A stretch of 64,000 nucleotides of DNA from Oscillospiraceae bacterium (GTDB lineage Bacteria; Bacillota; Clostridia; Oscillospirales; Oscillospiraceae): assembly GCA_015068235.1 (NCBI GenBank), contig SVKY01000002.1:1-64000 (forward strand), in the 5' to 3' direction. Positions 2,046 through 63,750 of the stretch are shown piece after piece (position 1 is the stretch's first letter; each line of letters opens with the position of its first letter). The notes under the pieces are model-generated. The model was given only the letters and a program-made list of their open reading frames with translations, was not told the DNA's origin and did no database searches. The position numbers were made by a program, and so were the translations under genes.

Positions 2046-2387
2046 TCAGAAGTTGTCGAGGAAACCGAGTAGTGCTTCCTCTGTTTCGGCTGCTTCTTCC
2101 TTTTCAACAGTAGGCGGTACGAAGGGCGTTTGTGCAGAAGCTGTCTGCACCATATTCAGTAACCCGGCCAAGGGATTGTGGTTTGCCATCTCTTCCTTAA
2201 TTATAGCAGTGAGCCGAGTTAGAAACATATCCTCTCTTGTTTTCTCGTCGGAACGATCCAAATACTCGCAAAGCGCCGAAACAACCGTCTTGGTGTAGGA
2301 ATCATCTTTGCTTTGCAAAAAATCAAAGACCCGACGATCTTCCGGTCTATCCAGATTCAGACGGAGCTTCACATTTCGGATATTCAT
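2046..2387 (-). CDS. ParR-like partition/DNA-binding protein
   Basis: Small protein (NVKLRLNLDRPEDRRVFDFLQSKDDSYTKTVVSALCEYL) overlapping the ParM-like gene stop/start. Confidence 0.5.
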   Translation of the reverse strand: MNIRNVKLRLNLDRPEDRRVFDFLQSKDDSYTKTVVSALCEYLDRSDEKTREDMFLTRLTAIIKEEMANHNPLAGLLNMVQTASAQTPFVPPTVEKEEAAETEEALLGFLDNF

Positions 2388-3310
2388 ACTCCGCCAGCCT
2401 TTCGATTCAGGGTCAGCATTGCCATATACTCATACCCCTTTGCCGTTGCACAAATATCATCGTTAATGACCACGCGGCTACTGTCATACTCTCCGAAGTT
2501 GCGGATCAGACAGCCACCGCCACCTACTACATACAGCTTCATAAGCTTGGGATTATACTCATGTTCTCGCAGTCGTTGGAAGATTCCGGCTGTGTAGGAC
2601 TTTGCAGTTTTAACTACGGTTTCGAGATATGCCTTGTCAATATCCGCTGTGCCTTTCTTTAGGATTTCTGTAATAATCGCATCGTCCAAAGTTGCATGGT
2701 GCAATCGCATCATTTGTTCCCGGATCAGAATGGTGCATTGATGGACACCATACTTTTCGGTAAACATATGCTGTGTGTCAGGCACTCTGTTCGTGATCTT
2801 CAAAAGATTCATGGTTCCATTTCCAATATCGCAGAGCAGGTTCACTCCTGTGAAAGTCCCAAGCTTTTCTGCAACCGCTGCAAACCCTTGGGGAAAGATC
2901 TCAGCGCCGACGATTTGGAGCCGGTACTCCACATTGCGGAATATATAGGTCACTTCTTTATTCTGCAAAAGGTATTTCTTAAAAGATTCCTTCTGCTCAC
3001 TGACCCAAGTAAGAGGCAAGCCAGCAGCGATAAATACTTTCGCTTCCGCGATCCGTTCCCGTTTCAGTTCCCGTGCAATGGCGGCAAGAGTCAGTACACA
3101 GTAATCCTCGTCCTCAAACTTATCTGCCGTGAATTCCTTGTGACCTGCTCCGATGGAATAATATCTCCCGTTCCACACAAGCAGATCGTTGATAAAGATC
3201 GGCTCCTTGTCGCTTTTCAGCACCCCTGTAGGGAAGCAGCAGTTCGCCGTCTTCATGTTCCCATAGCCGTGATCGATGCCGATCACATACATATCGTTCA
3301 GTTTCTTCAT
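2384..3310 (-). CDS. ParM/StbA-like actin-family plasmid segregation ATPase
   Basis: MYVIGIDHGYGNMKTANCCFPTGV phosphate-1 motif; LCDIGNGTMNLL phosphate-2; YVVGGGGCLI adenosine motif. Confidence 0.75.
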   Translation of the reverse strand: MKKLNDMYVIGIDHGYGNMKTANCCFPTGVLKSDKEPIFINDLLVWNGRYYSIGAGHKEFTADKFEDEDYCVLTLAAIARELKRERIAEAKVFIAAGLPLTWVSEQKESFKKYLLQNKEVTYIFRNVEYRLQIVGAEIFPQGFAAVAEKLGTFTGVNLLCDIGNGTMNLLKITNRVPDTQHMFTEKYGVHQCTILIREQMMRLHHATLDDAIITEILKKGTADIDKAYLETVVKTAKSYTAGIFQRLREHEYNPKLMKLYVVGGGGCLIRNFGEYDSSRVVINDDICATAKGYEYMAMLTLNRKAGGV

Positions 3311-8031: not shown

Positions 8032-8161
8032 TTTTGCTTATCCGACCCACTTAGAGGTTAAAGACAGTACCATCTTTACCACAACGGGGAGCATATTTCA
8101 ATAACTTGATTTTTTCTTGTATTTTCATTCTAAATCTCAAGTGCAACCCACAAAACACCAA

Positions 8162-8176
8162 ATTGAGAAACTCAAT
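8162..8176. promoter_or_regulatory. Candidate operator: ATTGAG-AAA-CTCAAT inverted repeat
   Basis: Perfect 6-3-6 inverted repeat just upstream of the -35 of the BREX-like operon promoter. Confidence 0.4.
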
Positions 8177-8182
8177 ATCAAT

Positions 8183-8211
8183 TTGACTTTTTATACATTT
8201 GATGCTATACT
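8183..8211 (+). promoter_or_regulatory. Predicted sigma-A promoter of the HTH/BREX-like operon
   Basis: TTGACT (8183-8188) - 17 nt - TATACT (8206-8211). Confidence 0.6.
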
Positions 8212-8254
8212 ATATGTTGTATTTTGCCGAATTTTTGATTCTGAGGTGATCGAA

Positions 8255-8500
8255 ATGGCTATGAACTATAATAGACTTTGGAAAATGTTAATTGACCGAA
8301 ACATGATGAAAAAAGACTTAATACAAAAGGCTGGAATTTCCACGAATGCAATGGCCAAGATGGGAAAAGGTGGCGATGTTTCAACGCAGGTGCTCAGAAA
8401 AATTTGCACAGTCCTAGATTGTGGGATAGAAGATATTGTTGAAGTTGTTGCCGATTCTGCGGATAAATGCGAATTCCTTGATGTGCAGGAGCAACGGTAG
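8255..8500 (+). CDS. XRE/Cro-family HTH regulator
   Basis: MAMNYNRLWKMLIDRNMMKKDLIQKAGISTNAMAKMGKGGDVSTQVLRKICTVLDCGIEDIVEV; typical small Cro/C1-type regulator. Confidence 0.75.
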   Translation: MAMNYNRLWKMLIDRNMMKKDLIQKAGISTNAMAKMGKGGDVSTQVLRKICTVLDCGIEDIVEVVADSADKCEFLDVQEQR

Positions 8501-8543: not shown

Positions 8544-10712
8544 ATGGCTATTCGGAAATTTTGGGATAAATATGAAGCTGCTCTTCTGCTTAAGTACGCG
8601 ATTTTAGTTGAAGAGGGCACTGTTTCTCTAACGAGTGCTGTGTCGGAAGTATCAGAGATATTACGCAATCGGGCGGTATCTAGGGGCCTGCTGATTGATG
8701 ATTGTTTTCGTAATGTGAACGGCATCTCAATGCAAATGTCAGCACTCAGAAACTGCTATCAAGGAGGCACGAAGGGCTTAGCTGCCTCAAAGCTCATTAG
8801 AGAGATTGTTTCGCTATACAAGACTGATAAAATTGCTTTTGAGCGTATTCTTCAGGAGGAATCAGTAGAAATAGAAAATTTAAAAGGAACAGCGAATCGA
8901 ATGGTAGACGAGAACAAACTTGTAAATTTCGCAGAAACGCGGAGCTATGCCCATACAAAACCAACAAACTGCACATACAAAGGTACACCAATAGTGTGTG
9001 TTAGCTGGAATGCGCTTTACATTAATCTCGTTAGGGCTTTTTATAAAGATTATGCATTATCATTCCCCGTTGGAAAGCAACTCTCTTCAAGTGAGAGAAT
9101 TGACATTGGCGACTCTAAGGGAATGACCTACCCAAAAGAAATTGCTGACGGAGTTTTTCTTGAATGCAATGTTAGTGCAACAGGCATTATTAATAAGGTC
9201 CGCGCCCTGATGAACGTCTGTAATATATCGCCAGATGATGTTGTGGTACATTATTGCAGATCTGGTCAGAATGCAGATGCAGCAGATAAGAAAAATGCGA
9301 CCCCTAAAGAAAAGGTGCCAGTATGGTCACCTAAGTACACGAAGGAATTATCTGATTTACTACAGGCACACTACCACTATGGTTTCCGGATTGGCTCCCC
9401 AATTGAGATGATGCGCCTGAGAAACTATGCAGATGCGGAAAGTATTGTTGTTCCGGAATCTGATGAAGAACTCGATCGTGAGATTAAAATGGCTGGCGTA
9501 CTTATCGACGGGATGCTGTTCGCATTGAGTGATTCGCTATTGGATGATGTAGGGGCTTTTATTGATAGCATTTTTTCCAGTGGTGCTTGCGTTGTGTTTA
9601 CCGAAGTGTTGATGGAAAAGCACCTTGATTGGTTTGAAGAAAGGCTAATCATATCCGAAGAAATGCTAAAGGAAATCCTGCGTAAGAGTCGACCCGGATA
9701 TTATTTTGGTCATAATATTATTACTGCGGGCAATAAGCTTTCTGAACATGATGCGATTGTTCATGATATTCTTCGGATTGCTGGCAATAGTAGCGTTATT
9801 CTCTTTGATGAGATGGTGCAACAACTGCAGTATATTCCATCGGATAAAATTGCTTGGAGTTTATCCGCAAGCCAAGAGTTTGTTTGGATTAGCGAGGGTA
9901 AATACTTTGTTATGCAGCATTTTCTTGTGGGAAACGAAGACGAGACTGCCATTTTGGACTTCGTTGCAAGAGAGTGCGAAAGAAATGGTTTTGCATCTAT
10001 AACAGATTTACCCTTTGGAAGCATCCCTGATGATAATTACGAACTGTCTGTTACTGCGTTGTATTCGGCGGTATTCACCCGAATCTTGAAAGGTCGATAT
10101 TATCTTCACGGGAAGATTATCACAAAGGAATCAGACGGTGTAGATATTACGGCTCTCTTGAAAGCATTCTGTGTTGGCAGAGATGAATGTTCCGTCTCCG
10201 AGGTTCTTGCTAGAGCGACAGAATTGACGGGTGCTATCAATAAGCAATATTCTATGGAAGCCTTGTATGGAACGATGGTTCGTGTCGATGTAGACCGCTT
10301 TGTATCGGAGAAATATATTTCTTTTGATGTAGAAAGGATCGACCACCTTTTATCTGAGGTTCTTGGAGACAGGTTTACACCGATAAAATCCATTACTACA
10401 TTTGCTTTGTTCCCCGCCTGCGGAATCAGCTGGAACCACTATGTTCTGGAAAGCTTCTGCTATCGATTCAGCAACAAATATCGACTTGTTGTTATGAACT
10501 ATAATGACAAGAATGCAGGTATTATCAAGTTTAAGGACTTACCGCTCGGTTATACAGATATGCTATGTGAGGCTGCGGCAGTTTCAAATATTGAACTTAC
10601 CCAGGATTGTGTTGGGCAATACTTCTTTGACTGCGGTTTGACCGCAAAGAGAAAATACTCCAACCTTTCGGAAATTGTAGAAAGAGCGAGAAACATTAGA
10701 GAGGAGCGCTGA
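8544..10712 (+). CDS. Protein of unknown function, first large gene of the BREX-like operon
   Basis: 725-aa ORF (716 aa from the preferred ATG at 8544; GTG at 8535 also possible). N-terminal FWDKYEAALLLKYAILVEEG..AVSEVSEILRNRAVSRGLLIDDCFRNVNGISMQMSALRNCYQGG module, then a second module (WNALYINLVRAFYKDY..GVFLECNVSATGIINKVRALMNVCNI); no motif assigned in the C-terminal half. Confidence 0.7.
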   Translation: MAIRKFWDKYEAALLLKYAILVEEGTVSLTSAVSEVSEILRNRAVSRGLLIDDCFRNVNGISMQMSALRNCYQGGTKGLAASKLIREIVSLYKTDKIAFERILQEESVEIENLKGTANRMVDENKLVNFAETRSYAHTKPTNCTYKGTPIVCVSWNALYINLVRAFYKDYALSFPVGKQLSSSERIDIGDSKGMTYPKEIADGVFLECNVSATGIINKVRALMNVCNISPDDVVVHYCRSGQNADAADKKNATPKEKVPVWSPKYTKELSDLLQAHYHYGFRIGSPIEMMRLRNYADAESIVVPESDEELDREIKMAGVLIDGMLFALSDSLLDDVGAFIDSIFSSGACVVFTEVLMEKHLDWFEERLIISEEMLKEILRKSRPGYYFGHNIITAGNKLSEHDAIVHDILRIAGNSSVILFDEMVQQLQYIPSDKIAWSLSASQEFVWISEGKYFVMQHFLVGNEDETAILDFVARECERNGFASITDLPFGSIPDDNYELSVTALYSAVFTRILKGRYYLHGKIITKESDGVDITALLKAFCVGRDECSVSEVLARATELTGAINKQYSMEALYGTMVRVDVDRFVSEKYISFDVERIDHLLSEVLGDRFTPIKSITTFALFPACGISWNHYVLESFCYRFSNKYRLVVMNYNDKNAGIIKFKDLPLGYTDMLCEAAAVSNIELTQDCVGQYFFDCGLTAKRKYSNLSEIVERARNIREER

Positions 10713-10717
10713 TTCCG

Positions 10718-13054
10718 TTGTATTCATATACATATGATTCCCTGTCAGGCGGAATAGTGTTAAATTCCACCCCAACCGTTTTTTCCAAGGAACCTAGACC
10801 CGTGTGGGCGCATGAGATGGATCTTCTTGGCTTCAACAACTACTGGAATTATGACAATACGTGTGAAGAACCTTATATGTGGGCCGAGTCTAACATGTAT
10901 TGGTATAGGGGTGTGCTGATTGCCAAGACAAAAGGTGGCGATCTGTACACGGAACCTGAATTGCAGCCGGTAAGACTGGAAGATGGCAGCATTCCTTTTT
11001 CAAAAATCGATGGTGATTCTTTGCACCCGGTTGATCTTTCAGTTATGTGTGAGAAGAACAAAGACCTCCTTGCAATTATCGAAGATACGACAGTAAAAAA
11101 GATTGTAAAAGAATATGAAAAGTTCAAATCAAAGCTGGACATATTCCATGTTGCTTTTTCTGGTGGTAAGGATAGTGCGGTTCTTCTGGATTTGGTAAAG
11201 AAAGCATTGCCTATTGGAAGTTTCGTTGTTATCTTCGGAGATACCGGAATGGAGTTCCCTGACACATATTCCGCAGTGGAACAGACAAAAAAACAGTGTG
11301 AGGAAGATGGGACTCCATTTTACATTTCGAATTCGCACTTTACCCCCGACGAATCCTGGCAGTTATTTGGTCCTCCTGCTCGAGTCTTGCGCTGGTGCTG
11401 TAGTGTTCATAAGAGTACGCCACAGACTTTGAAGATGAGAGAAATTACCGGAAAGGATAATTACATTGGCATGGATTTCGTGGGGGTAAGAGCCCATGAG
11501 AGCCTTACTCGTAGTAAATACGAATACGAGAATTTTGGTAAAAAACAAAAAGGTCAGTATAGCTACAATCCGATTCTCGAATGGACATCTGCTGAGATTT
11601 GGCTCTACATGTTCATGAATGATGTGCCAATAAATGATGCCTACAAAAAAGGCAATTCTAGAGCTGGCTGCTTATTTTGCCCGATGAGTGGTGGCTCCAG
11701 TGATTATTTTAGACGCTGTGCATATCCTTCAGAAGTTGATAGATATGTTGAACGTATTAGGACTTCCTATTCTGCAACAGATGAAAAGGCTGCAGAATCT
11801 TATGTACGCAATGGCGGTTGGAATGCACGCAAAAATGGCCGAGATCTTGTTGACAATCCATTTAGGTGCATTGAATCAACATCCGGCGAACACATCACCA
11901 TTACAGTTGTCAACCCATCCACAGATTGGAAAGAGTGGATCAAAACGATTGGCGATTTCTATGAAACAAGTGATGGATATAGTGTTAGTTGGAAGGGGAC
12001 AACGTATCGGTTTTCCGTAATTGAAAAAGAAAATGGATATGTTGTATATCTGCCACAAGCGATATCCAAAGAGAACCCCCAATTTGTAAAACTATTCCGG
12101 CAGGTCTTTAGAAAAGCATCCTACTGTGCTGGATGTAGGGTATGCGAAACAAACTGTAGGAATGGCAGTATTAAGTTTATTGATGGTAAGCTTCAGATTA
12201 CAAATTGCATTCATTGTCATCAGTGTCATCTTATAGACAGCGGTTGCTTACTGTTCCATTCTTTGAGGCATCCGCAAGGAGGAGGAAAATCCATGAAGAG
12301 CTTAAACTCATTTGCAGATCACGCTCCGAAACGTGATTGGCTGGTTTCGTTCTTTGACCTCAAGGAGGATTTCTTTACTGAACACTCTTTGGGGCCAATG
12401 ATGTACGATATGTTCCGACGCTTTTTGCGGGATGCTGGTCTTAATGAAAAGAACCACTTTACACCCTTTGCTGAGTTGGTGGATATGATCGGCTGGGAGA
12501 GCGAAACGGCACTTGGACTGATGATGGTTAACCTGGCAATGGATAATCCCCAGATTGCATGGTATGTCAAGTCTCTTGATGTCGGTTTCTATTATGAACG
12601 GTCTCAGGTAGAATATATGCTGGTCGCCTTAGATGTAAAACCGAAAGATGCAAAATCTATCGTAAAGTCCTATAAGCGCATCATGAGTACACCTTTTGGT
12701 ACGGCATTAAACTTTGGATATGTTACAGATGAGGACGACATTGTTCGGTTGAAGTGGACAGTGAGCGATAATAGGGTGTTTTTGTACGCCTTGTATCGTT
12801 TTGCGGAAAAATGCAACCTCAGCAAGGAGTTTAATGTAACATATTTGTTTGAGGAAGATACAGATAGAGATGCTGTAAGCCCCGTTCGCTTGATGGGCTT
12901 TTATGATGAAGAAGAATTAAAATCGGTTCTTCTGGGGCTTGCAGCTCGCTACCCTGACTATATCAATGCAACTTACACCAATGATCTGAAAACCATCACT
13001 TTAAGGGACAAGTCCGCCGCGGATGTTCTTAAGCTGTTTGAGGAGGAACTCTGA
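10718..13054 (+). CDS. brxP: BrxP-like PAPS reductase/DndC-like ATP pyrophosphatase with ferredoxin domain (type 4 BREX)
   Basis: PP-loop HVAFSGGKDSAVLLDLV; RWCCSVHKSTPQ; AGCLFCPMSGGSSDYF; CAGCRVCETNCRNGSI...CIHCHQC 4Fe-4S motifs; TTG start. Confidence 0.8.
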   Translation: MYSYTYDSLSGGIVLNSTPTVFSKEPRPVWAHEMDLLGFNNYWNYDNTCEEPYMWAESNMYWYRGVLIAKTKGGDLYTEPELQPVRLEDGSIPFSKIDGDSLHPVDLSVMCEKNKDLLAIIEDTTVKKIVKEYEKFKSKLDIFHVAFSGGKDSAVLLDLVKKALPIGSFVVIFGDTGMEFPDTYSAVEQTKKQCEEDGTPFYISNSHFTPDESWQLFGPPARVLRWCCSVHKSTPQTLKMREITGKDNYIGMDFVGVRAHESLTRSKYEYENFGKKQKGQYSYNPILEWTSAEIWLYMFMNDVPINDAYKKGNSRAGCLFCPMSGGSSDYFRRCAYPSEVDRYVERIRTSYSATDEKAAESYVRNGGWNARKNGRDLVDNPFRCIESTSGEHITITVVNPSTDWKEWIKTIGDFYETSDGYSVSWKGTTYRFSVIEKENGYVVYLPQAISKENPQFVKLFRQVFRKASYCAGCRVCETNCRNGSIKFIDGKLQITNCIHCHQCHLIDSGCLLFHSLRHPQGGGKSMKSLNSFADHAPKRDWLVSFFDLKEDFFTEHSLGPMMYDMFRRFLRDAGLNEKNHFTPFAELVDMIGWESETALGLMMVNLAMDNPQIAWYVKSLDVGFYYERSQVEYMLVALDVKPKDAKSIVKSYKRIMSTPFGTALNFGYVTDEDDIVRLKWTVSDNRVFLYALYRFAEKCNLSKEFNVTYLFEEDTDRDAVSPVRLMGFYDEEELKSVLLGLAARYPDYINATYTNDLKTITLRDKSAADVLKLFEEEL

Positions 13055-13055
13055 T

Positions 13056-16000
13056 ATGGCTACGAGCACGAAATATTGCGAATACTTTGACGTTAATGAG
13101 ACATATTTCCCGTGTATTGATGAATCGGCCATTAATGCAGGAGTACAGTGGGAGACTACTTACCCGCATGAAACATTTATTGAAATGCTGAGCAGTGTCG
13201 ACAAGATGCTTGGTGGCACGACAAATCGGTCTCTGTGGATTCATGGTGCATATGGAACCGGTAAGTCTCAGTGTGCGTATGCATTGAAGCGGATCCTAGA
13301 GGTGCCGGAGTCCGAGGTTCGCGCCTATTGGGATATGTACGAACCGCTCAAAAAGAATGGCGCGCTTCTTGAGAAACTGCTTGGACATAAAGAACATGGT
13401 GTCATCACCGCGTATCGCTATGCTTCTGGAAGTATCACCTCGCCCCAACAGCTCTTTCTCGCAGTGCAAGAAAGCGTTCGTGCCGCATTGGATAAGGTCC
13501 CTGGTTCCTATAAAGGCGAGAACACTCTGAAGGAAAGTGTTATCTCTTGGCTGGAGGATCCTGCCCATAATAGCTTTGTCAACACGCTCCTTGAGAAGCC
13601 TGAATGGATGGCTGAATTTTCACAGTCTTCTGCTGATGAAATTATAAACACGCTGAAGAAAAGCACGGAGATTTCCGGCCTGATGGATAGCATATTCAAG
13701 ATGGCTGCGAAGGAGGGAATTACTGCGCTGTCCCTTACGTCAGATTCCCTTTGCAAATGGATTATTGATGTTGTCACAAAAAATAACACGAAAATTGTGC
13801 TGATTTGGGATGAGTTTAGCGGTTTCTTCCGTCAGAATAAGAACTCATTGGATGAGTTCCAGAAGATTGTCTCAATTTGCGAAGAGGCTCATTTTTACTT
13901 TATCATCGTTACGCACCCGATTTCTTCCATTGCAGGAGCTTCGGTCTCCAAGGATGACCCAATGAGTGTCGTTCAGCAGCGTTTTAATAAGGTTGAAATC
14001 AGCTTGCCTCCGAATATTGCTTTTGACCTTATCGGACATGCGTTCTCTGTTATTCCGGCAGCAAGGAAACAGTGGGATATGATGACTGGGGATCTGAATG
14101 CCAGAGTCTCCTCGTCCAGAAATGCTGTTATGAAGGCAGCCACAGTAACAAATGCATCGGTTATGCAGCGTATGTTGCCGATCCATCCTACGGCCGCTCT
14201 AGTTCTGAAGAATATTGCTTCCGCGTTCCAGTCAAATCAGCGGAGTATGTTTGATTTTATTAAGACTCCAAAGGATTTGGATGTTCAAGCTTTTCAATGG
14301 TTTATTCAAAATAGAAGCCCGATGTCCGATCGGCCCCTTCTTACGGTTGATATGTTGTGGGACTTTTTCTATGAGAAAGGCAAGGACTATTTGTCTTCCG
14401 ATATCAAATTGATCCTTGATACATTCCCTCAGCAGACAAACCTTGTTGAAAAAGAAAAGGTTGTTCTGAAAGCTATCCTGATTATGCAAGCGGTTGATCA
14501 GCGACTGGGCGGTTCTATTCCTCTGCTCAAACCTACAGACCAAAACTTAAGCTATGCATTTGAGGGCGACGCACCTGAGTATGAAAATGGCTGTAAAAAC
14601 ATAGCAAAGGCACTCGTCACCAAAGGAATCCTGATTCCCGCACCGATCGCCGACGGTAAAAAGGCCTATGCTGTGGCCGTTCTTGCTGGAGACGGTGCAA
14701 AAATTGACGGATATAAGGCCGAAGTTCGCAAAAATGGAACAATCAATAAATTGGTCGAAGAAGGCGAACAGCTGGCAACCGCTTTGAGCCTTACCCCTGC
14801 GCTGAAACTGCGGTATGCTTTAAGCGTTGATTCTGGCGCACTTCCCATTGTTACCGTTGCGAATTTCACAAAAACCATGGATGCTCTGAAGGCAAAGGAT
14901 GTAAATTGGCATTTTTATGCCGTACTTGCTCTTGCGAAAAACGACGAGGAAGCACAGAAGTTCCGTGGCATGATTAAGCAAGCGGTGGCAAACGAAGAAT
15001 ACAAAAACATTGCTATTATTGATGCTCTTTCTACTCCGTTGGGCTTAGAAGAGTTCGAACGATATGTGGAATTTTCTGCCATGGCAATGTATTACCAAGG
15101 CAATCAAAATCAGCAGGCCAAAGATAATGCACGAAAGGCAAAAGATGTTCTTAACCGTACGTGGAGAGAACGCATTCACGATGGACATTTTGTCGTGTGG
15201 ACATATGCAAACCAGGATGGAGAAAAGGCTACTGGCGCAACTGCGGTTCACACGATCATGCAAACTATAGTGCGTAGCCGGTTTGTTTATGCGTTTGACT
15301 TCACTAAGGGTCTCTCTGAATCACAGCTAAAACTTACAACAGCAAAACCTATCGCTAGATATGGCATGGGCAATATTGAAATCACGGGTTTGATTAAGGG
15401 ATGTGAGAAAACCGTTCTCGGAAAAGTATGGAATCGTGATAATTATTGGACGGATTCTGATTTGGAAAAAGAGCCGATTTCTGTAATCAAGCGCGCTGTC
15501 ATGAAAATGATTGATGACTCTTTCAAGGCAAATGGAAGAATTGCGATTGATGAGATCTGTGATTTTCTTGAGACTTCGTATGGTTTTTCTCCCTGTAATC
15601 TATCAGTATTTATTACCGGTTTCCTACTGCGGGAGTATAATAGTGATCCTTATCGTTGCCAGGATTCCGAAGGTCATAGAGAGTCGATGACACCAGATAA
15701 GCTCGCAGAAATGATTGCGAACTACATGACCAAAAAATCCAAGACAACGTACATTGTGAGCCTAACAGAAGATGAGAAAGCATTTTATGAAATGACAGAA
15801 GAGGCTTGGGGAATCATGCCAAATACTTGCTCATCTCCGACACAGGCAGGTACCTTGATCCAGGCGAAAATGCGAGAATTTGCATATCCTGTTTGGTGCC
15901 TTGAGGAAGTAGATACACTTGGCGTATTCGACATTGTCAAAAAATACATTCTGCTTGTTCAGAGCGATGGACAGGCCGCACACAGTATCGCCAATGATAT

Positions 16001-17219
16001 CGGAAAAATCGCCCGTCAAAGACCGTCTTGCACCAAGAATCTCACGAGTCTTCTCACAGCGGAGAATTGCCAAAAGGGTATTGAGTTGTTCCTTGAGCAC
16101 TTTGAAAATGGCAGATTGGTATCTTTGGCGGCTGAAATTGGTGCTATGGAGCAAATGCTCGGTGATATCAAGAAGCTGTTCAGTGTAAAACATTCTGCAC
16201 AGTGGGTTTCTACAACTGGTGAGGATGAGATTCGTAAGCTCATTGTGGAATATGAGGTCATCAAGATCACCAATTTGCTCTTAAATGTATCGAATCATAC
16301 AAAGGATGCTACTTTTAAATCCTGGAGGGAGACACTGAAGTTTATCGGCCTATCTTGCGAGGCTATAAGGACTAAGGTGCCTGCCCTCGACAAGGTCTTT
16401 GAGCTGCTTCTAAAACTCGCAAATTATGATGAGATTCTCCCCGAAAATATGCTTCAGCTATTTACTGAACTTTCGACTCATCAGTTAGAACTGAACGACA
16501 TTCTTAGCGATACTCTTGGCGCGTTCATAACACTGTATGAGCCGTATCTTGGTGGATTCTCACGCGCAGAATGCGAGGAAATCAAGAACTCTATCAAAGT
16601 CGATATGTTCATGCTGTCTGCAACTAAGAGCAATGCAGAAGTAAAAAAGGCGGCTGAGGATTATCGAAAGAATCAAATTAAAGTACAGCTTTTCAAGCTC
16701 TGGAGCGATAGAACAGGCGGAACCAAAAATCCGAGGCAGTGGTCTGAAAAATACAAAACTCCGATTCTGTATTGTTTGGAACCTGTAATCTATGGCGAGG
16801 CCAAAAGGGTATTTGCGGTGCTGAATAGCAATGCCCAAACAGAAGCAGAGATTAAGCTTGCTCTTGAATTTCTGCAAAGTGCAACATTCTTTGACACAAT
16901 TGAAGATCCTGCACATCGTGACCGATGCTTTGCGAAACACATTATCGGTGACTACATAAAGCTTCTGCCGGATATCGGTGCGGTTAGAGCAGCTCTGGAA
17001 GTGCTTGCTGTTGATCCTTATGACTGGGGCGATGATCCTACCGTTAAGGCGAAAGTACGGAGCATGGCCAGTGCGGAGTATAATGCCGGCGGCAGTGATG
17101 AAGCTAAAAAGGTCATCGATGACATGGAAGACGTTGAGGAGCTGAAGTCTTGGCTGAAAAAGCTCGTTGCTGGGGACATGGAATTAGGGGTTAAAATTAT
17201 TAGCAACGGAAGGGGGTAA
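13056..17219 (+). CDS. brxC: BrxC/PglY-like large P-loop ATPase
   Basis: Walker A IHGAYGTGKSQCAYAL; Walker B KIVLIWDEFSGFF; length and position between brxP and pglZ. Confidence 0.8.
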   Translation: MATSTKYCEYFDVNETYFPCIDESAINAGVQWETTYPHETFIEMLSSVDKMLGGTTNRSLWIHGAYGTGKSQCAYALKRILEVPESEVRAYWDMYEPLKKNGALLEKLLGHKEHGVITAYRYASGSITSPQQLFLAVQESVRAALDKVPGSYKGENTLKESVISWLEDPAHNSFVNTLLEKPEWMAEFSQSSADEIINTLKKSTEISGLMDSIFKMAAKEGITALSLTSDSLCKWIIDVVTKNNTKIVLIWDEFSGFFRQNKNSLDEFQKIVSICEEAHFYFIIVTHPISSIAGASVSKDDPMSVVQQRFNKVEISLPPNIAFDLIGHAFSVIPAARKQWDMMTGDLNARVSSSRNAVMKAATVTNASVMQRMLPIHPTAALVLKNIASAFQSNQRSMFDFIKTPKDLDVQAFQWFIQNRSPMSDRPLLTVDMLWDFFYEKGKDYLSSDIKLILDTFPQQTNLVEKEKVVLKAILIMQAVDQRLGGSIPLLKPTDQNLSYAFEGDAPEYENGCKNIAKALVTKGILIPAPIADGKKAYAVAVLAGDGAKIDGYKAEVRKNGTINKLVEEGEQLATALSLTPALKLRYALSVDSGALPIVTVANFTKTMDALKAKDVNWHFYAVLALAKNDEEAQKFRGMIKQAVANEEYKNIAIIDALSTPLGLEEFERYVEFSAMAMYYQGNQNQQAKDNARKAKDVLNRTWRERIHDGHFVVWTYANQDGEKATGATAVHTIMQTIVRSRFVYAFDFTKGLSESQLKLTTAKPIARYGMGNIEITGLIKGCEKTVLGKVWNRDNYWTDSDLEKEPISVIKRAVMKMIDDSFKANGRIAIDEICDFLETSYGFSPCNLSVFITGFLLREYNSDPYRCQDSEGHRESMTPDKLAEMIANYMTKKSKTTYIVSLTEDEKAFYEMTEEAWGIMPNTCSSPTQAGTLIQAKMREFAYPVWCLEEVDTLGVFDIVKKYILLVQSDGQAAHSIANDIGKIARQRPSCTKNLTSLLTAENCQKGIELFLEHFENGRLVSLAAEIGAMEQMLGDIKKLFSVKHSAQWVSTTGEDEIRKLIVEYEVIKITNLLLNVSNHTKDATFKSWRETLKFIGLSCEAIRTKVPALDKVFELLLKLANYDEILPENMLQLFTELSTHQLELNDILSDTLGAFITLYEPYLGGFSRAECEEIKNSIKVDMFMLSATKSNAEVKKAAEDYRKNQIKVQLFKLWSDRTGGTKNPRQWSEKYKTPILYCLEPVIYGEAKRVFAVLNSNAQTEAEIKLALEFLQSATFFDTIEDPAHRDRCFAKHIIGDYIKLLPDIGAVRAALEVLAVDPYDWGDDPTVKAKVRSMASAEYNAGGSDEAKKVIDDMEDVEELKSWLKKLVAGDMELGVKIISNGRG

Positions 17220-19498
17220 TGCTTATGCTGTGCAGTGCAGTTCTCAACTATATAGCCACCGCAAGGGGATTACCGTTTTTTTATGTTGTTGGTGATGATA
17301 AATATTCTGCAACGCTGGACGAATTGTCTCAACTTGGGTTAATCATTGATCGCGCAAGCGATTTCTGCCCCAAGGAGGATAAACTCCCCAATGTTGATGA
17401 TATTATCGATCATTTCAGGACCCTTGATGTTGACTATAAGCAGAATAAGCATGTTCTGGTAGGACTTGGAGAGTTTTTGGCGCTAAAAGGAGCTGCCGTA
17501 GCAGAAAAAGAACTTCGTCGACTTAAAAACGCAACCCTTGGTTCTGCCCGTGTCGTTGTATTGCTCCGTTGTGTTATAACACAGGTATTTGACCTTGCAA
17601 ATGAGGATCGACGCCTTGCACAACAAGGTCGTATATACGTTGATGATAGTCCTCTTTCGGGTATAGGCCTAACCTGTATAAAATATGCCGTAGATGATTC
17701 GGTTGTGAGCGGTATTAAGGGATTCTTGCGTTTGTGTGAAGATGGCGCCACGGGAACAATTGGTGTCAATACTGCCATGCAGTTCCCCGCGGCAACGCTT
17801 CCTGTTAGTAGTATTAACTCCGCCTATGCTGCAATCCGAAAAGAGCTTCCAAATTTCGTGACAGATGAGGTCCTTGGCACAGACCAGCAATGGGATCAGT
17901 TGTTTAAGGAATTGGCAAAAGCAAAATGGTCTCTTGTTTCTGTGTTCGGCAAATACGGTTTCGCTTTAGAATTCAATGATGATCTGTATCGTAACTGTGC
18001 AGGTTATGAGTTTAGGAACTGGTTATTCTTCTTGTTCTTGAAGCTTAATGTAGAAGGTATTGGTACAGGATATCTGCGCTTTGTAGTCCAAATGACCGAC
18101 AACTATGAGTATCTTAAAGATAATATCCTGACCGCAATTATCCAGGTTCCAAGAAATGACAGCCGTTTCTATGCGTTCTATAATGAACGCAAAAAACTGA
18201 TTCGTTATTTTCCAGAATCTGAGATTGCTATATTCGTCCATCGGAACAGCATAAACTATGCTGAAAGTTTGTATCGCTATACTGACAACACTCGCATGGA
18301 ACGGGAAGAAGTTATTCGCTGGCTTTCTACATACGGATACTGCCCTGAAATTGAGTATGTTTATCCGGCACTGTATGATTACCTTAGGGATTACACGTTT
18401 GATTGCGGAAAGCTATCTGAAGAGTTGACTTCCTACTTTAGAGAGTACAAGCTTCAGAAACTTACAAATACCATTCACCCTGAATTTCAGGAACGAGTAA
18501 ATGCATATGCATTAAGCCTTCCGTATGTGCATCTGGAAACACGCGATAGTGCTATTCTTCGTATCCCGGACAAGAAGTCTGCCTTCCTGTACTGGATTGA
18601 TGCATTGGGTGTTGAATATCTTTCGTACATAACTGCGCTGGTGAAGAAAAAAGGACTGTCGATGCATATTGATGTCGCATATGCCGAACTACCGACGATC
18701 ACTTCCATCAACCGTGGATTTTACGAAAAATGGTCCGGTCCGCTAAAAGAAAAGTTATCAGATCTTGATGATATCAAACACAAGGAAAAGGGCGGTTATG
18801 TTTTTGACGAAAAACACGAGACCCCCATTCATCTTGCGGCAGAGCTGGAAATTATTGAACGTGCTGTTGACAGAGCGGCAACTGAGCTGGCGATGCATAG
18901 GTGTAAATCGTTTATTATAGCGAGTGATCATGGTGCGTCTAGATTGGCGGTAATTCGAAGGCAGGAAGAAAAGTACGAGACGGACACCAAAGGAGAGCAC
19001 TCCGGTCGCTGCTGTAAGGAGTTTCCTGATGCTGATCTACCTTTTGCTGTAAAAGAGAATGGGTATTATGTTCTTGGAGATTATGGCCGCTTCAAAAAGA
19101 GTAGAGCAGCAAATGTTGAGGTTCATGGTGGTGCCTCACTGGAAGAAGTCTTGGTGCCGGTCATTACACTGACTCTCCGCAAACAGACATCGCTGGTTGT
19201 TCAGTTGGCTGATAAAGATGTTAGAGCTGATCGAAGAACAGGAACAACCTTTGTGATATTTATTTCTGAGGTTGAGCATCCGTACAACATTAGTGTTATT
19301 ATTGATGGAGAACGGCTTAAGGCGAAGCACTTAGATGCAACACACTATGAGGTAAATATGCCTTCGCAAAAACGCTCAAAAAAAGATGTCCGCGCAGATG
19401 TATATGATGGTGATGACCTTGTGGGCAACCTCACATTTGAGATAAAGGGCAAATTTGGTGGTGCTGACAAGAAGGAATTCGATGATCTTACCTTCTAA
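17219..19498 (+). CDS. pglZ: PglZ-domain protein (alkaline phosphatase superfamily)
   Basis: FLYWIDALGVEYLSYI; FIIASDHGASRLAV; VEVHGGASLEEVLVPVITL; start overlaps brxC stop (TAATG). Confidence 0.88.
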   Translation: MLMLCSAVLNYIATARGLPFFYVVGDDKYSATLDELSQLGLIIDRASDFCPKEDKLPNVDDIIDHFRTLDVDYKQNKHVLVGLGEFLALKGAAVAEKELRRLKNATLGSARVVVLLRCVITQVFDLANEDRRLAQQGRIYVDDSPLSGIGLTCIKYAVDDSVVSGIKGFLRLCEDGATGTIGVNTAMQFPAATLPVSSINSAYAAIRKELPNFVTDEVLGTDQQWDQLFKELAKAKWSLVSVFGKYGFALEFNDDLYRNCAGYEFRNWLFFLFLKLNVEGIGTGYLRFVVQMTDNYEYLKDNILTAIIQVPRNDSRFYAFYNERKKLIRYFPESEIAIFVHRNSINYAESLYRYTDNTRMEREEVIRWLSTYGYCPEIEYVYPALYDYLRDYTFDCGKLSEELTSYFREYKLQKLTNTIHPEFQERVNAYALSLPYVHLETRDSAILRIPDKKSAFLYWIDALGVEYLSYITALVKKKGLSMHIDVAYAELPTITSINRGFYEKWSGPLKEKLSDLDDIKHKEKGGYVFDEKHETPIHLAAELEIIERAVDRAATELAMHRCKSFIIASDHGASRLAVIRRQEEKYETDTKGEHSGRCCKEFPDADLPFAVKENGYYVLGDYGRFKKSRAANVEVHGGASLEEVLVPVITLTLRKQTSLVVQLADKDVRADRRTGTTFVIFISEVEHPYNISVIIDGERLKAKHLDATHYEVNMPSQKRSKKDVRADVYDGDDLVGNLTFEIKGKFGGADKKEFDDLTF

Positions 19499-19509
19499 GG
19501 AGAATTTTA

Positions 19510-21000
19510 ATGGACTATACAGAAAAGCTCAGAGACTGTTTCGATGAAATGGTTGTATATAAGGATTTGAAGAAAACCAACTTCTTTTCAGCCCTTAGTC
19601 TGCCTGCGTTTATGAGAGACTGGCTCCTGAAAAAATTCGAAGATGATGATGGGAATTTTGACAAAGATGATATGGCTCGCTTTGTGAAAAAGTTTATTCC
19701 CCGCAAAGATGATTGGACATCAATCAAAAATCGAGTCATTGTAGAGGGTGAAATTGTAAAATTCTTGGCAAAAGTGTCAATCAATATTGATATTAGAACG
19801 GGAGAGGTCTCGTTTGCACTACCTGACTTCGGCTTGGGCTATAAGGAAACTATTATTGAAAGCCATGTTTGGGACGAGTGTAAGGATGATCTTGTTCGAG
19901 GCAGTGATACTTGGGGAATGGTTGAACTTGGTTATCGTTCCCCGGAGGATTTTGACATTGAGTTTGAATATGAGCAGAAACGTTCTCGTGCAAAATCTTC
20001 TCGTGAAGGGAAAATCAAACTGGTTTCGTTTAAGAACTTTTGCCCATACCAGATCGACTTGGATGAGTACAAAGATGCTCGTCGTGATTTTGAGATTGGC
20101 GAGTGGATCGATGTGATTTTGGGTGCAGTGGACTATAACGCAGGTGGGTATTCTTCTGAAGAGGAAAAGTTGACGATGATTACCCGACTACTCCCGTTTG
20201 TTGAGAAACGCCTTAACCTTATTGAGCTTGCTCCAAAGGGAACTGGTAAGTCTTACCTCTTCGGTAATGTTAGCCGTTATGGTTGGCTTTCCAGTGGCGG
20301 CGTGATGAGTAGAGCAAAGATGTTCTATGACCAGACGAAGCGAAGAGAGGGCTTGATTGCAGGTAGCGACTTTGTGACCCTGGATGAAGTTCAAACGATT
20401 TCGTTCACTGATACTGATGAGATGCGAGCAGCACTGAAAGGCTATATGGAGCAAGGCAATTTCACAGTTGGTGACTACAAAGGTGTTGCAGATGCTGGCG
20501 TGATTCTGTGTGGCAACATCCGAAAAGAGATTATGGACGCCGACGGCTATGCTAACATGTTTACAGAGCTTCCGGTTGTCTTCCATGAGTCTGCACTTAT
20601 CGAACGTTTTCATGGATTCATTAAGGGCTGGAATATTCCCAGAATGAACGATGATCTTAAAATTGATGGCTGGGCTCTCAATTCGGAATACTTTTGCTCA
20701 ATCATTCATGAGTTACGCAGTGATATGACCTACAGAAGTTTTGTTGATGAACACGTCGTTGTACCGGAAGGTGCAGACACTCGTGACACGGAAGCAGTAA
20801 AGAGAATAACAACCGCTTATTTGAAGTTGCTATTCCCTCATGTCCAGAGTGCGGCAGATATCTCAGAGAGGGAATTTAGACGTTACTGCCTCGATCGAGC
20901 AAGGAGAATGAGAGACACTATTCGATACCAGCTCGGTTTGCTAGATGAAGAATATGCAGGAAAGGATTTGCCTGCCTTTGGTGTGCAAGGATTGGAATAA
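19510..21000 (+). CDS. brxL: BrxL-like AAA+ protein (short form, no Lon S16 domain seen)
   Basis: LIELAPKGTGKSYLFGNVSRYGWLSSGGVMSRAKMFYD; FVTLDEVQTISF; ends at 496 aa. Confidence 0.82.
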   Translation: MDYTEKLRDCFDEMVVYKDLKKTNFFSALSLPAFMRDWLLKKFEDDDGNFDKDDMARFVKKFIPRKDDWTSIKNRVIVEGEIVKFLAKVSINIDIRTGEVSFALPDFGLGYKETIIESHVWDECKDDLVRGSDTWGMVELGYRSPEDFDIEFEYEQKRSRAKSSREGKIKLVSFKNFCPYQIDLDEYKDARRDFEIGEWIDVILGAVDYNAGGYSSEEEKLTMITRLLPFVEKRLNLIELAPKGTGKSYLFGNVSRYGWLSSGGVMSRAKMFYDQTKRREGLIAGSDFVTLDEVQTISFTDTDEMRAALKGYMEQGNFTVGDYKGVADAGVILCGNIRKEIMDADGYANMFTELPVVFHESALIERFHGFIKGWNIPRMNDDLKIDGWALNSEYFCSIIHELRSDMTYRSFVDEHVVVPEGADTRDTEAVKRITTAYLKLLFPHVQSAADISEREFRRYCLDRARRMRDTIRYQLGLLDEEYAGKDLPAFGVQGLE

Positions 21001-21004
21001 TTGA

Positions 21005-21205
21005 ATGGGAAATAAGAGTTGTTATGTCTGCGGCAAGACTGTGCTTACTAAAGATGAAATTGGCCTTACAAAAAAACTGATTGACAAGAAAAGCTCGGTA
21101 TTCTTCTGTGTCTATTGTCTTGCTGAACAGTTGGAGGTAACAAAAGAAGAACTTCTTGCAAAGATAGAGGAATTCAAAGAAGAAGGTTGTACCCTCTTCA
21201 GGTAG
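21005..21205 (+). CDS. 66-aa double CxxC (zinc-ribbon-like) protein
   Basis: MGNKSCYVCGKTVLTKDEIGLTKKLIDKKSSVFFCVYCLAEQLEVTKEELLAKIEEFKEEGCTLFR; 4-nt gap from brxL, 13-nt gap to the desulfurase gene. Confidence 0.7.
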   Translation: MGNKSCYVCGKTVLTKDEIGLTKKLIDKKSSVFFCVYCLAEQLEVTKEELLAKIEEFKEEGCTLFR

Positions 21206-21218
21206 CGGAGGATTAACC

Positions 21219-22337
21219 ATGATCTATGCTGATAATGCGGCTACAACAAAACTGGATAAAGATGCGTTTGTGGCTATGATTCCTTGGCTTCAAGACGAAT
21301 TTGGAAACGCCTCGCAACCATACTCGTTTGCTCGAAAACCAAAGAAAGCAATAGCAGAAGCTCGAGCTTTGATTGCTAGTTGTATTGGGGCTGAGCCTGG
21401 TGAGATTTTCTTTACCTCTGGTGGCACTGAAAGCGATAACTGGGCAATTATGGGAAGTGCACTTGGCAATCTTGAGAAAAAAACTACCGTTACATCTATG
21501 ATTGAGCATCACGCAGTTCTTAGAACTTGCGAGGCTATTGAAAGATTGGGTTACCCAGTTGCGTATTTGGATGTTACCCAAGATGGTATTGTTACAGCAG
21601 AGGCTCTCGAAAGTATCATTACAAATCGGACGAGACTCGTTTCGGTTATGTATGCCAATAATGAAATAGGATCTATTCAGCCGATAAAAAAATTGGCTGA
21701 AATCGCCCATGTCCATGGAGCAATATTTCATACAGATGCAGTGCAAGCAATCGGTCATGTGCCAATTGATGTCAAGGAACTTGGAATAGATATGTTGTCG
21801 GCATCTGCACACAAGTTCAATGGTCCCAAAGGGATCGGATTTCTCTATATCAGGAAAGGTACATGTATCTCTCCATATGCGAATGGAGGAGCTCAAGAAA
21901 GCGGTTTAAGAGCTGGCACAGAAAATGTGGCAGGAATCGTCGGCATGGCTACTGCACTGAAGAAAAACTGTGATGAAATGAGTGATATTGCTGATCGTTT
22001 GCGAAAAATTGAAGATCATTTTTTAGAAATTCTTGATCAAGCACATATTACCTATATTCGCAATGGGGCTGATAATCGGATACCCGGAAATGTAAGTGTT
22101 TCAATTAAGGATGTGAGTGGAGAGATGCTTCTCCACCGCCTAGATTTGAAGGGAATCGCGATCTCTACTGGCTCTGCTTGTGACTCTGTGGACACACAAA
22201 TTTCTCACGTTATTCAGGCTATTAGAGTTCCGGCTGAATACGCAGAAGGAACAATACGAGTAAGTTTTGGGAGAGAAAATACAGAGACAGATGCCGACAC
22301 GATCGCGAAGGCACTCGTTCAGATTCTTACTAAGTGA
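21219..22337 (+). CDS. Cysteine desulfurase (DndA/IscS/NifS-like)
   Basis: YADNAATTKLD; FTSGGTESDNWAI; HTDAVQAIG; SASAHKFNGPKGIGFLYIR (PLP Lys); STGSACDS (catalytic Cys loop). Confidence 0.9.
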   Translation: MIYADNAATTKLDKDAFVAMIPWLQDEFGNASQPYSFARKPKKAIAEARALIASCIGAEPGEIFFTSGGTESDNWAIMGSALGNLEKKTTVTSMIEHHAVLRTCEAIERLGYPVAYLDVTQDGIVTAEALESIITNRTRLVSVMYANNEIGSIQPIKKLAEIAHVHGAIFHTDAVQAIGHVPIDVKELGIDMLSASAHKFNGPKGIGFLYIRKGTCISPYANGGAQESGLRAGTENVAGIVGMATALKKNCDEMSDIADRLRKIEDHFLEILDQAHITYIRNGADNRIPGNVSVSIKDVSGEMLLHRLDLKGIAISTGSACDSVDTQISHVIQAIRVPAEYAEGTIRVSFGRENTETDADTIAKALVQILTK

Positions 22338-22354
22338 TAAGTAACTGAAAAACA

Positions 22355-22380
22355 CCCTCTGTGGAATTGTCCGCAGAGGG
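22355..22380 (+). terminator. Hairpin after the BREX-like operon
   Basis: CCCTCTGTGG-aattgt-CCGCAGAGGG; no strong U-tract. Confidence 0.5.
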
Positions 22381-22497
22381 CGTCTGTCTTATAGTGTCGG
22401 CACTCCCGTATACTGTTTAGTCACAGTAGATGCAAAGGCTTTAACTTGGTACAATAAGTTTCTGGTATTCTGATTAATATATACTTTCTCAATCGGA

Positions 22498-22869
22498 TTA
22501 TACGAAAATCAAGTCATTGCCTACGATTTCGGTAGCACGGGAATGGATGTTATTCATGCGTGTGACCCATTCCATTTGGTTGGTGGCTTTCAGGTCTTCT
22601 GTGATGCCTTCGGCGGTGGCGAATTGTTTGATCAGGCGGTCGTAGAGTTCAGTGGCTTGGCGGTCAACTTCTTCTAAGTGAGGGGTGAGGGTTTCGTTCA
22701 TTTGCATGATGGAGAAGAGGACTCGGCGGTGGTTTTTGAGGTAGTCGTAGCGGCGGTGGCCCCAGATGCCAATTTTGGGTGGATCGGGGGCTTTGACGAG
22801 GGGAATGTAGTAGTCACCCATGAGCTTGTAGTGCAGACCGGTTTTGGGATCGTAGATGGTGTCTTGCAT
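22498..22869 (-). CDS. TnpV-like transposon-encoded protein
   Basis: YDPKTGLHYKLMGDYYIPL...IGIWGHRRYDYLKNHRRVLFSIMQMNETLTPHLEEVDRQA matches remembered TnpV family pattern. Confidence 0.75.
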   Translation of the reverse strand: MQDTIYDPKTGLHYKLMGDYYIPLVKAPDPPKIGIWGHRRYDYLKNHRRVLFSIMQMNETLTPHLEEVDRQATELYDRLIKQFATAEGITEDLKATNQMEWVTRMNNIHSRATEIVGNDLIFV

Positions 22870-22899
22870 TTTGTGTTCCTCCTTTTTGAATTTAACGGT

Positions 22900-23193
22900 T
22901 TATTCTTCTGACAGGCTTTGAAAGGGAGAGGCGATGGACACGAAGGTGTCATAGGTGAAGCTTGCGCCCAAGCGGAAACCGAGGATGAAGCTGTCCAGAT
23001 TGGATTCTCCGTTGATGATATCCCATGCGTTTGAGAAAGTAACGAAGCTTTTCTTGTGTTCTTCCGGGAGATTCTTTGTCAGAAAATCTTCGCTCTGTGT
23101 CAGAATTTCCATTTGTTTTTGGACTACTTTATTTTGTCTTGTGCTTCGGTCTTGCGGATTGATGTTGCCGTAATACAGTTCTTCAATAAAATT
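22900..23193 (-). CDS. DUF6809-like hypothetical protein
   Basis: MGNFIEELYYGNINPQDRSTRQNKVVQKQMEILTQSEDFL...; internal Met preferred over the 23298 ORF start. Confidence 0.6.
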   Translation of the reverse strand, partial: NFIEELYYGNINPQDRSTRQNKVVQKQMEILTQSEDFLTKNLPEEHKKSFVTFSNAWDIINGESNLDSFILGFRLGASFTYDTFVSIASPFQSLSEE

Positions 23194-23452
23194 TCCCATT
23201 GCGTTTACCTCCTTTGTTTTTACTATCCTCATTGTACACAAAGGCTGGACAATAGTCGAATGTACCGCAAAAAAAGAAAAAGGGCCATGCCGAAGCACAA
23301 CCCTTTGAATGCAAGAATAGACCTACAATGTAATTTATACACCGGTCTTAAAATCCATTTCCTATGTTTATTTATTGCTTTTTAACTAATTGTGTGGTAT
23401 AAGTACAATATATAAAATTGTTTCTATATAAAAAGTATTGGGGGGTGTTTTT

Positions 23453-45592: not shown

Positions 45593-45621
45593 TTGTATAT
45601 TTCCTGAAAATATGTTATGAT
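45593..45621 (+). promoter_or_regulatory. Predicted extended -10 sigma-A promoter for OLE RNA
   Basis: TTGTAT (45593-45598) - 17 nt - TATGAT (45616-45621) with upstream TGn. Confidence 0.65.
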
Positions 45622-45627
45622 ACTTTT

Positions 45628-46238
45628 GGTGGCGCTGTATCCTAGTCAAAGGCCGCCGGTATCGAAGAAGGGCCTAAAAATCCTTTTAAGGGCATATCGA
45701 TGAAGTCCCTGGTGCTTGCTTTTTTCGCCCAGATTAGGGTGGGTGCTGGGGGTTAAGGTTTTCGGGCGAGGCGCAATGGCATGTACCGACCGACCCGGAT
45801 TCCGTGGAGACCTGTTATTGTGCGACAGACGCAAAGTATCATGTGTACCCGGACTGCGTACGAAACAGGAGTAGAACCTGCAAGGCGGTGCACAGAATCG
45901 TGTGCTGTGTGCAGTGTAGCCTGCCTTGCGTGGGTATGCGGGGATTGGGGAGTGAGGCGTTCGGGGCTGTGGCCGCAGCCGACGAGCGATATTGCCCCTT
46001 GAAACCATATCTGCAAAAGAGGATAGAACCGGCGTACGATGTTGTGGAAATCACCTAGGCTGTCTTTTTGCAAAGGGCAGGTAAAGGATTGCAGTGCGGA
46101 CTAAGTGGCAATCGGGTAGCGGATGCGGTGACGCTCCGTCGAGGCTTCAAACGGAAACGGCTGCATGGCGACGTGCAGCAGCCGAAGGGGAAATCCAACC
46201 CGACCTAAGCCGTAAGATTAACTTTATCTGCTGCCACC
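45628..46238 (+). ncRNA. OLE RNA (ornate large extremophilic RNA) candidate
   Basis: About 611-nt noncoding, GC-structured block upstream of an OapA-like gene and dxs-tlyA-nadK-argR-recN; ends GGTGGC (45628-45633) and GCCACC (46233-46238) are complementary; promoter immediately upstream. Confidence 0.85.
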
Positions 46239-46266
46239 TTTTTTATAATATTAGGAGGGTCCTGCC

Positions 46267-53244: not shown

Positions 53245-53289
53245 AAGCTTGACAAAATTCGAGCTTTCTGTTACCATAAGCACAATATG

Positions 53290-53545
53290 AAACGCAATGA
53301 TGGGAAGAAGTAGTCGATTTTCTGCTCTCAGAGAGCTGTCAGTTGGTGCAAGACAGTGAGTATATGCGGCGAAATACATCCCGGAGTGGTCTACCTGAAC
53401 GGTTTTCTATTAGGGTAGAACGGGTGCGCCCGTCAAAGCGTGAGAGTCTTTGACTCGCTGAGCCTTTTCCTGCGAGGGAAGGGGAAATCAGAGGTGGTAC
53501 CGCGTAATTTACGCCCTCTGTTCCGAGCGGAACAGGGGGCTTTAT
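53290..53545 (+). promoter_or_regulatory. T-box riboswitch (Tyr), candidate specifier UAC at 53375-53377
   Basis: AGAGGTGGTACCGCG T-box sequence, terminator ccctctgttccgagcggaacaggggg, stem-I motifs (agagagctg, ggtgcaagacag). Confidence 0.88.
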
Positions 53546-63504: not shown

Positions 63505-63750
63505 AAAAATCACCCCTGAAAAATCAGGGGTGAGAAAAATCCCACGGTTCCACCCTGCTTGCAGTTTGTTCCAACTGCCGCTCGTTGGCGCAATAACGGG
63601 CGCACCCGTCCCTCCCTACTATGTTCAGGAGGGCAGCTCAAAAGCGGTTTTGCACTATACGGATGCAGGAGCTCGCACCAACCGCTCCCTCTCTGTGCAG
63701 CCGAAAAATAGCACAATTCTTTCTCACAGCCATTTTCACACGCCCAATAT
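63505..63750 (-). promoter_or_regulatory. T-box riboswitch (Thr), candidate specifier ACC (plus-strand ggt 63646-63648)
   Basis: Reverse strand AGGGTGGAACCGTGGG T-box followed by terminator hairpin CACCCCTGATTTTTCAGGGGTG; upstream of thrS. Confidence 0.87.

Follow-up and report, generated by a model that had tools for sequence, protein, structure and literature searches.

A NifS-related cysteine desulfurase as the last gene of a type 4 BREX operon in an Oscillospiraceae bacterium

Introduction

Phosphorothioation-based defence needs a source of sulfur. In the Dnd and Ssp systems DndA, SspA or IscS hands cysteine sulfur to a PP-loop enzyme. The brxPCZL genes are counted among the phosphorothioation gene families and there are reports of DNA phosphorothioate modification in other systems of type 4 BREX (PMC11931770). 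A stretch of 64,000 nucleotides from an Oscillospiraceae bacterium (the window) carries an operon of this type that ends with a cysteine desulfurase gene, which raises the question whether the enzyme serves BREX or is a housekeeping protein encoded there by chance. A dedicated desulfurase would make the BREX-4 operon less dependent on its host.

Results

An intact desulfurase gene closes a complete type 4 BREX operon

The type 4 BREX set of brxP, brxC, pglZ (type 4) and brxL is complete in a single operon, followed by a gene for a 66-aa protein and, in last position, the desulfurase gene (Table 1). Both traits of the published type 4 BREX desulfurases, a desulfurase within the operon and a small zinc-finger gene, are thus present.

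Table 1. Features of the BREX operon and its boundaries in the window
Feature	Position	Strand	Evidence
Cro/C1-type HTH regulator heading the operon	8117..8500	+	PF13443; several related loci have one upstream
Fast-evolving protein with a predicted winged-helix array; 722 aa if counted from the likely ATG	8544..10712	+	Nearly always immediately 5′ of brxP in related loci
brxP, PAPS-reductase-like PP-loop (SGGKDS 148-153), DUF4007-like C-terminus	10718..13054	+	PADLOC BrxP 809 bits
brxC / pglY	13023..17219	+	PADLOC BrxC 1555 bits
pglZ, type 4	17219..19498	+	NF033445 BREX_PglZ_4 511 bits, cut-off 140
brxL	19510..21000	+	PADLOC BrxL 738 bits; TIGR02688 393 bits, above cut-off
66-aa Cys4 zinc-finger-like protein	21005..21205	+	Five invariant cysteines: C6, C9, C35, C38 and, within the C-terminal tail GC-x-(L/Y/F)-F, C62
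Cysteine desulfurase, class I (NifS-type)	21219..22337	+	PF00266 266 bits; PADLOC; NCBIfam; BREX clade 100/98
Terminator-like hairpin closing the operon	22355..22380	+	Stem 11 bp, 7 G-C

The product of the last gene, which starts with ATG, is a class I (NifS/IscS-type) cysteine desulfurase of 372 aa, intact and a full-length member of the Aminotran_5 family. It has the entire residue set of the IscS/NifS group, namely the PLP-binding lysine, the stacking histidine, the Asp/Gln pair, the substrate-binding Asn and Arg and the catalytic Cys in an (S/T)GSAC-type loop. These residues (H97, N148, D173, Q176, K199, C321 and R347) are invariant across 20 BREX-linked homologues, and the STGSAC loop aligns with SSGSAC in E. 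coli IscS. The start codon lies exactly 13 nt past the end of the 66-aa ORF, with a GGAGGA Shine–Dalgarno-like site within the gap. A hairpin begins 17 nt 3′ of the stop codon; the region 22335-22400 folds with −25.8 kcal/mol (z = −5.0) and none of 200 shuffled sequences was equally stable. The T-tract that follows is imperfect (CGTCTGTCTT) and 'terminator-like' is therefore the right term. The original prediction had described just this arrangement, a desulfurase with full PLP and catalytic-Cys motifs placed 13 nt after the 66-aa gene, followed by a terminator-like hairpin and closing a BREX-like operon, and all of it was recovered here.

The gene immediately upstream of brxP encodes a protein without Pfam, PADLOC or NCBIfam match. 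A homologue occupies the same position in 29 of the 30 related loci with upstream sequence. Its median identity of 34%, compared with 62% for BrxP, marks it as fast-evolving, and an array of winged-helix domains is predicted (Foldseek matches: UFL1, ESCRT-II, SelB). Target recognition in this type 4 BREX is a possible role for it.

TnpV and DUF6809 genes lie directly past the operon (22498-23298, minus strand) and an actin-like gene (ALP_N/ParM-type; 2384-3310, minus strand) lies upstream. With these neighbours the BREX region looks mobile, which fits the absence of brxP from 16 congeners. A search of the region for direct repeats as a sign of an integrative island found none, and a 389-aa ORF near a tRNA-Val gene, considered as an integrase, is a PLD-like protein. 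Between positions 5848 and 7990 (plus strand) an AAA ATPase gene resembling AbiLi/AriA (95 and 48 bits) precedes a 256-aa ORF that matches AriB faintly; the pair is probably another anti-phage system adjoining BREX. Elsewhere the window contains a full-length OLE RNA, a large structured non-coding RNA (RF01071, 443 bits; 45613-46253, plus strand), and two T-box leaders at 53288-53521 (plus strand) and 63523-63736 (minus strand).

The BREX-linked desulfurases form their own clade close to NifS

In a phylogenetic tree, 25 BREX-linked desulfurases, which come from six or more phyla, fall into a single clade (100/98). NifS lies on the nearest branch, with weak support for this join, and the Dnd-linked desulfurases group with E. 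coli IscS. DndA is represented in the tree by three Dnd-linked enzymes from genomes, and SspA has no representative in it. The clade has diagnostic residues: H180 and T317 occur in 26/26 members and 0/29 other sequences (S otherwise at position 317), and N201 in 24/26 versus 1/29 (mostly Y otherwise). When 399 genomes were searched with a profile of the BREX desulfurases, the four top matches all lay beside a 66-aa gene and brxL, after which the scores fell from 535 to 508 bits and the next matches were NifS enzymes. The original prediction had likened the enzyme to DndA and thought a housekeeping IscS role unlikely. The distinct BREX clade agrees with this, but a grouping with IscS/NifS, which would have counted against the prediction, is borne out in part: the nearest outside relatives are the NifS enzymes of NifS-IscU operons and not DndA.

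An alternative origin would be capture of a Dnd module gene by BREX, which would make the enzyme a true DndA. DndA is indeed the top PADLOC match (437 bits), though SspA scores equally (434 bits), and PMC12839542 calls the BREX desulfurase closely similar to DndA. With the NCBIfam DndA model (TIGR03235), however, the enzyme reaches 338.2 bits, under the cut-off of 480 (a value that the three Dnd-linked enzymes tested, with 424-476 bits, do not reach either) and under the 448.1 bits obtained with the NifS model (TIGR03402), itself short of its cut-off of 530.75. The AU test does not reject a clade of the BREX enzymes and two of the Dnd-linked desulfurases (p-AU 0.06), but it rejects one with all three (p-AU 0.0014), and the host genome has no DndC match (TIGR03183) at E ≤ 1e-30. 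We regard capture from a Dnd module as the least probable of the readings considered. The analogy with DndA would be functional rather than genealogical, the enzyme being nearer to NifS in the tree.

The proximity to NifS lends some appeal to a housekeeping NifS that lies beside BREX by chance and serves general Fe-S assembly or tRNA thiolation, the more so as the host genome lacks the NifS-IscU pair present in 10 of 16 congeners. But a near-complete congener also lacks NifS-IscU, though BREX is absent from it, the BREX-specific clade extends across phyla, and brxP is absent from 16 congeners of the host. An IscU scaffold gene adjoins 21 of the 26 closest non-BREX relatives, which are NifS enzymes, and 10/10 NifS-type loci in the congeners; none was found beside the BREX-linked desulfurases checked. 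Nor is the enzyme the only desulfurase of its genome. A family search (Aminotran_5) found four other full-length genes in the host: a divergent class I desulfurase, two TIGR01977-type enzymes and SerC. The class I paralogue is common to 13 of 16 congeners, and the three without it are only 55-76% complete. A chance housekeeping neighbour is thus very improbable, in keeping with the original prediction, and own clade, co-inheritance with brxP, missing IscU partner and other genomic desulfurases all support an enzyme that appears dedicated to the type 4 BREX operon.

Loci with the desulfurase are a subset of those with the 66-aa protein

A BrxP search of 84,980 species genomes, biased to close relatives of the query BrxP, yielded 33 loci. 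The part downstream of brxL is available in 24 of the 33 loci; the 66-aa gene is present in all 24 and the desulfurase in 22, where it comes last in the same gene order. This recurrence, in Bacillota, Verrucomicrobiota, Fibrobacterota, Spirochaetota, Thermotogota and Armatimonadota, is far more than expected by chance and provides the co-occurrence with brxP across phyla that the original prediction called for. In one locus, about 0.8 kb separates the 66-aa gene from the desulfurase. As for the two remaining loci, that of Desulfotruncus arcticus has kept the 66-aa and BREX genes along with a decayed desulfurase remnant in place, and in the other the 66-aa gene is present and no desulfurase was found downstream of brxL. 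Searches of plasmids found no close BrxP, the best having 27% identity.

A less biased sample of 300 Bacillota genomes gives a different picture. BrxP-model matches of 250-336 bits were not counted as BREX here, since they lack the C-terminal part and were assigned to another PAPS-reductase family. Twelve have a full or decayed BrxP; the 66-aa gene is found in 9/12 and the desulfurase was seen in the BREX locus in 2/12, so it is not essential to type 4 BREX as a whole. Within this sample the BREX genes of one genome (G148) lie on two contigs joined by inference, and in another (G272) the contig ends past the 66-aa gene. In a deep-branching locus (G310) the 66-aa gene sits between brxP and brxC. 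Neither gene was found in the BREX loci of two genomes (G259 and G351), and both are absent from an archaeal plasmid BREX-4 (Methanosphaera). Placed on the BrxP tree, 36 loci, which are related and do not count as independent events, comprise 26 with both genes, seven with the 66-aa gene alone, three with neither and none with the desulfurase alone; several deep branches have the 66-aa gene only. The distribution of the desulfurase is nested inside that of the 66-aa protein. On the most parsimonious reading, the 66-aa component would be older and the desulfurase gained later and then lost repeatedly. The desulfurase tree and the BrxP tree do not agree in full, and the gene has therefore probably been exchanged among BREX-4 systems. 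Its repeated absence or loss implies that a housekeeping desulfurase can replace the dedicated one.

The 66-aa protein has seven invariant residues in 35 sequences (C6, C9, C35, C38, G61, C62 and F65), the fifth cysteine, C62, lying in the C-terminal tail as might be expected of a sulfur carrier. Its AF2 model has a mean pLDDT of 87, and Foldseek returned only winged-helix/HTH matches (E about 1) too weak for naming the fold. The protein might be the core partner in the sulfur step, a zinc-stabilised carrier whose Cys62 would take the persulfide from a dedicated or a housekeeping desulfurase and present it to BrxP. Such a role would account for the retention of the 66-aa gene upon desulfurase loss and for its place between brxP and brxC in the deep-branching locus, and a sulfur relay would show how one DNA-sulfur machine can be served by different desulfurases. 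However, four distant homologues (44-56 bits) that adjoin alpha-galactosidase (Melibiase_2) genes in annotated loci have kept all five cysteines. This weakens the carrier idea, which we consider doubtful and have not adopted as the main reading.

Discussion

The reading we favour, with a probability of about 0.78, is that of a NifS-derived PLP-dependent desulfurase dedicated to type 4 BREX, which would feed sulfur to the modification machinery for phosphorothioation of host DNA as a self mark. Sulfur from L-cysteine would form a persulfide on Cys321 of the enzyme and then be passed on, most likely to BrxP. Persulfide transfer to BrxP and a DNA phosphorothioate product are what we infer from the Dnd/Ssp precedent. 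BrxP is the likely candidate for the acceptor: its SGGKDS loop, C227, C318, C321 and eight ferredoxin-type cysteines (470/473/476/480/497/500/503/510) are invariant in 36 sequences.

As the eight ferredoxin-type cysteines make up two cluster sites, selection may instead have acted on cluster maturation and not on direct donation of sulfur. In this case the desulfurase would serve BREX indirectly by building the [4Fe-4S] clusters of BrxP and the DNA sulfur would come from another desulfurase. A title listed in PMC12839542 (You 2007) credits DndA with the assembly of DndC as an Fe-S protein, and a search of the host for NifU_N gave one weak partial match and no clear full-length protein. Against this, no scaffold gene accompanies the BREX desulfurase and the Dnd/Ssp precedent favours the desulfurase as donor of the DNA sulfur. 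We consider the purely indirect role unlikely. Cluster assembly and DNA sulfur donation are not mutually exclusive, and the role of the dedicated desulfurase towards BrxP may be direct donation, cluster maturation or both.

In Vibrio, DndA could not substitute for SspA and dedicated partners can therefore matter; the many BREX-4 loci without a desulfurase in cis suggest that substitution also occurs. The nested distribution, with the 66-aa protein more widespread and the desulfurase never found without it, provides a testable order of importance.

The original prediction took the desulfurase for an unreported addition to type 4 BREX. This did not hold, as Rakesh and Krishnan (NAR 2026, PMC12839542; January 2026) count 255 taxa with such a desulfurase among 457 with type 4 BREX, a small zinc-finger gene often accompanying it, and propose the same role. 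The present locus is a new, clean and well-supported example of a published association, not a discovery. To this we add the NifS-affine clade, the nesting under the 66-aa gene, the in-place decay in one locus, the invariant tail cysteine and the winged-helix-array gene 5′ of brxP. The accessible part of PMC12839542 contains no mention that we could find of the nesting, the invariant fifth cysteine or the winged-helix-array protein.

Comparison with known systems

With its operon type, small zinc-finger neighbour and proposed role, the desulfurase differs in nothing essential from the type 4 BREX desulfurases of PMC12839542; that paper stresses the likeness to DndA, whereas our tree places the enzyme nearer to NifS. 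SspA of the Ssp system is likewise a dedicated desulfurase, encoded beside the PAPS-reductase-like SspD and the BrxC-like SspC, and BrxP and BrxC are distant homologues of SspD and SspC. However, SspA belongs to another operon (sspBCD), and the equal DndA and SspA PADLOC scores do not discriminate. The host genome has no SspD match (PDLC02782) at E ≤ 1e-40, and none of six SspD loci sampled in the phylum has a desulfurase in cis within the stretch fetched. DndA, too, is a desulfurase of class I, provides sulfur to a PP-loop phosphorothioation enzyme, as proposed for the present enzyme, and is itself often absent and replaced by IscS; in contrast, the enzyme described here falls under the DndA cut-off, is not placed as a sister of the Dnd-linked enzymes in the unconstrained tree and belongs to a BREX operon rather than to dndBCDE. 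The closest sequence family and nearest branch remain the NifS enzymes of NifS-IscU operons (TIGR03402), from which the BREX enzyme is set apart by its score (448 against a cut-off of 530.75), by the lack of an IscU neighbour and by a clade of its own with diagnostic residues.
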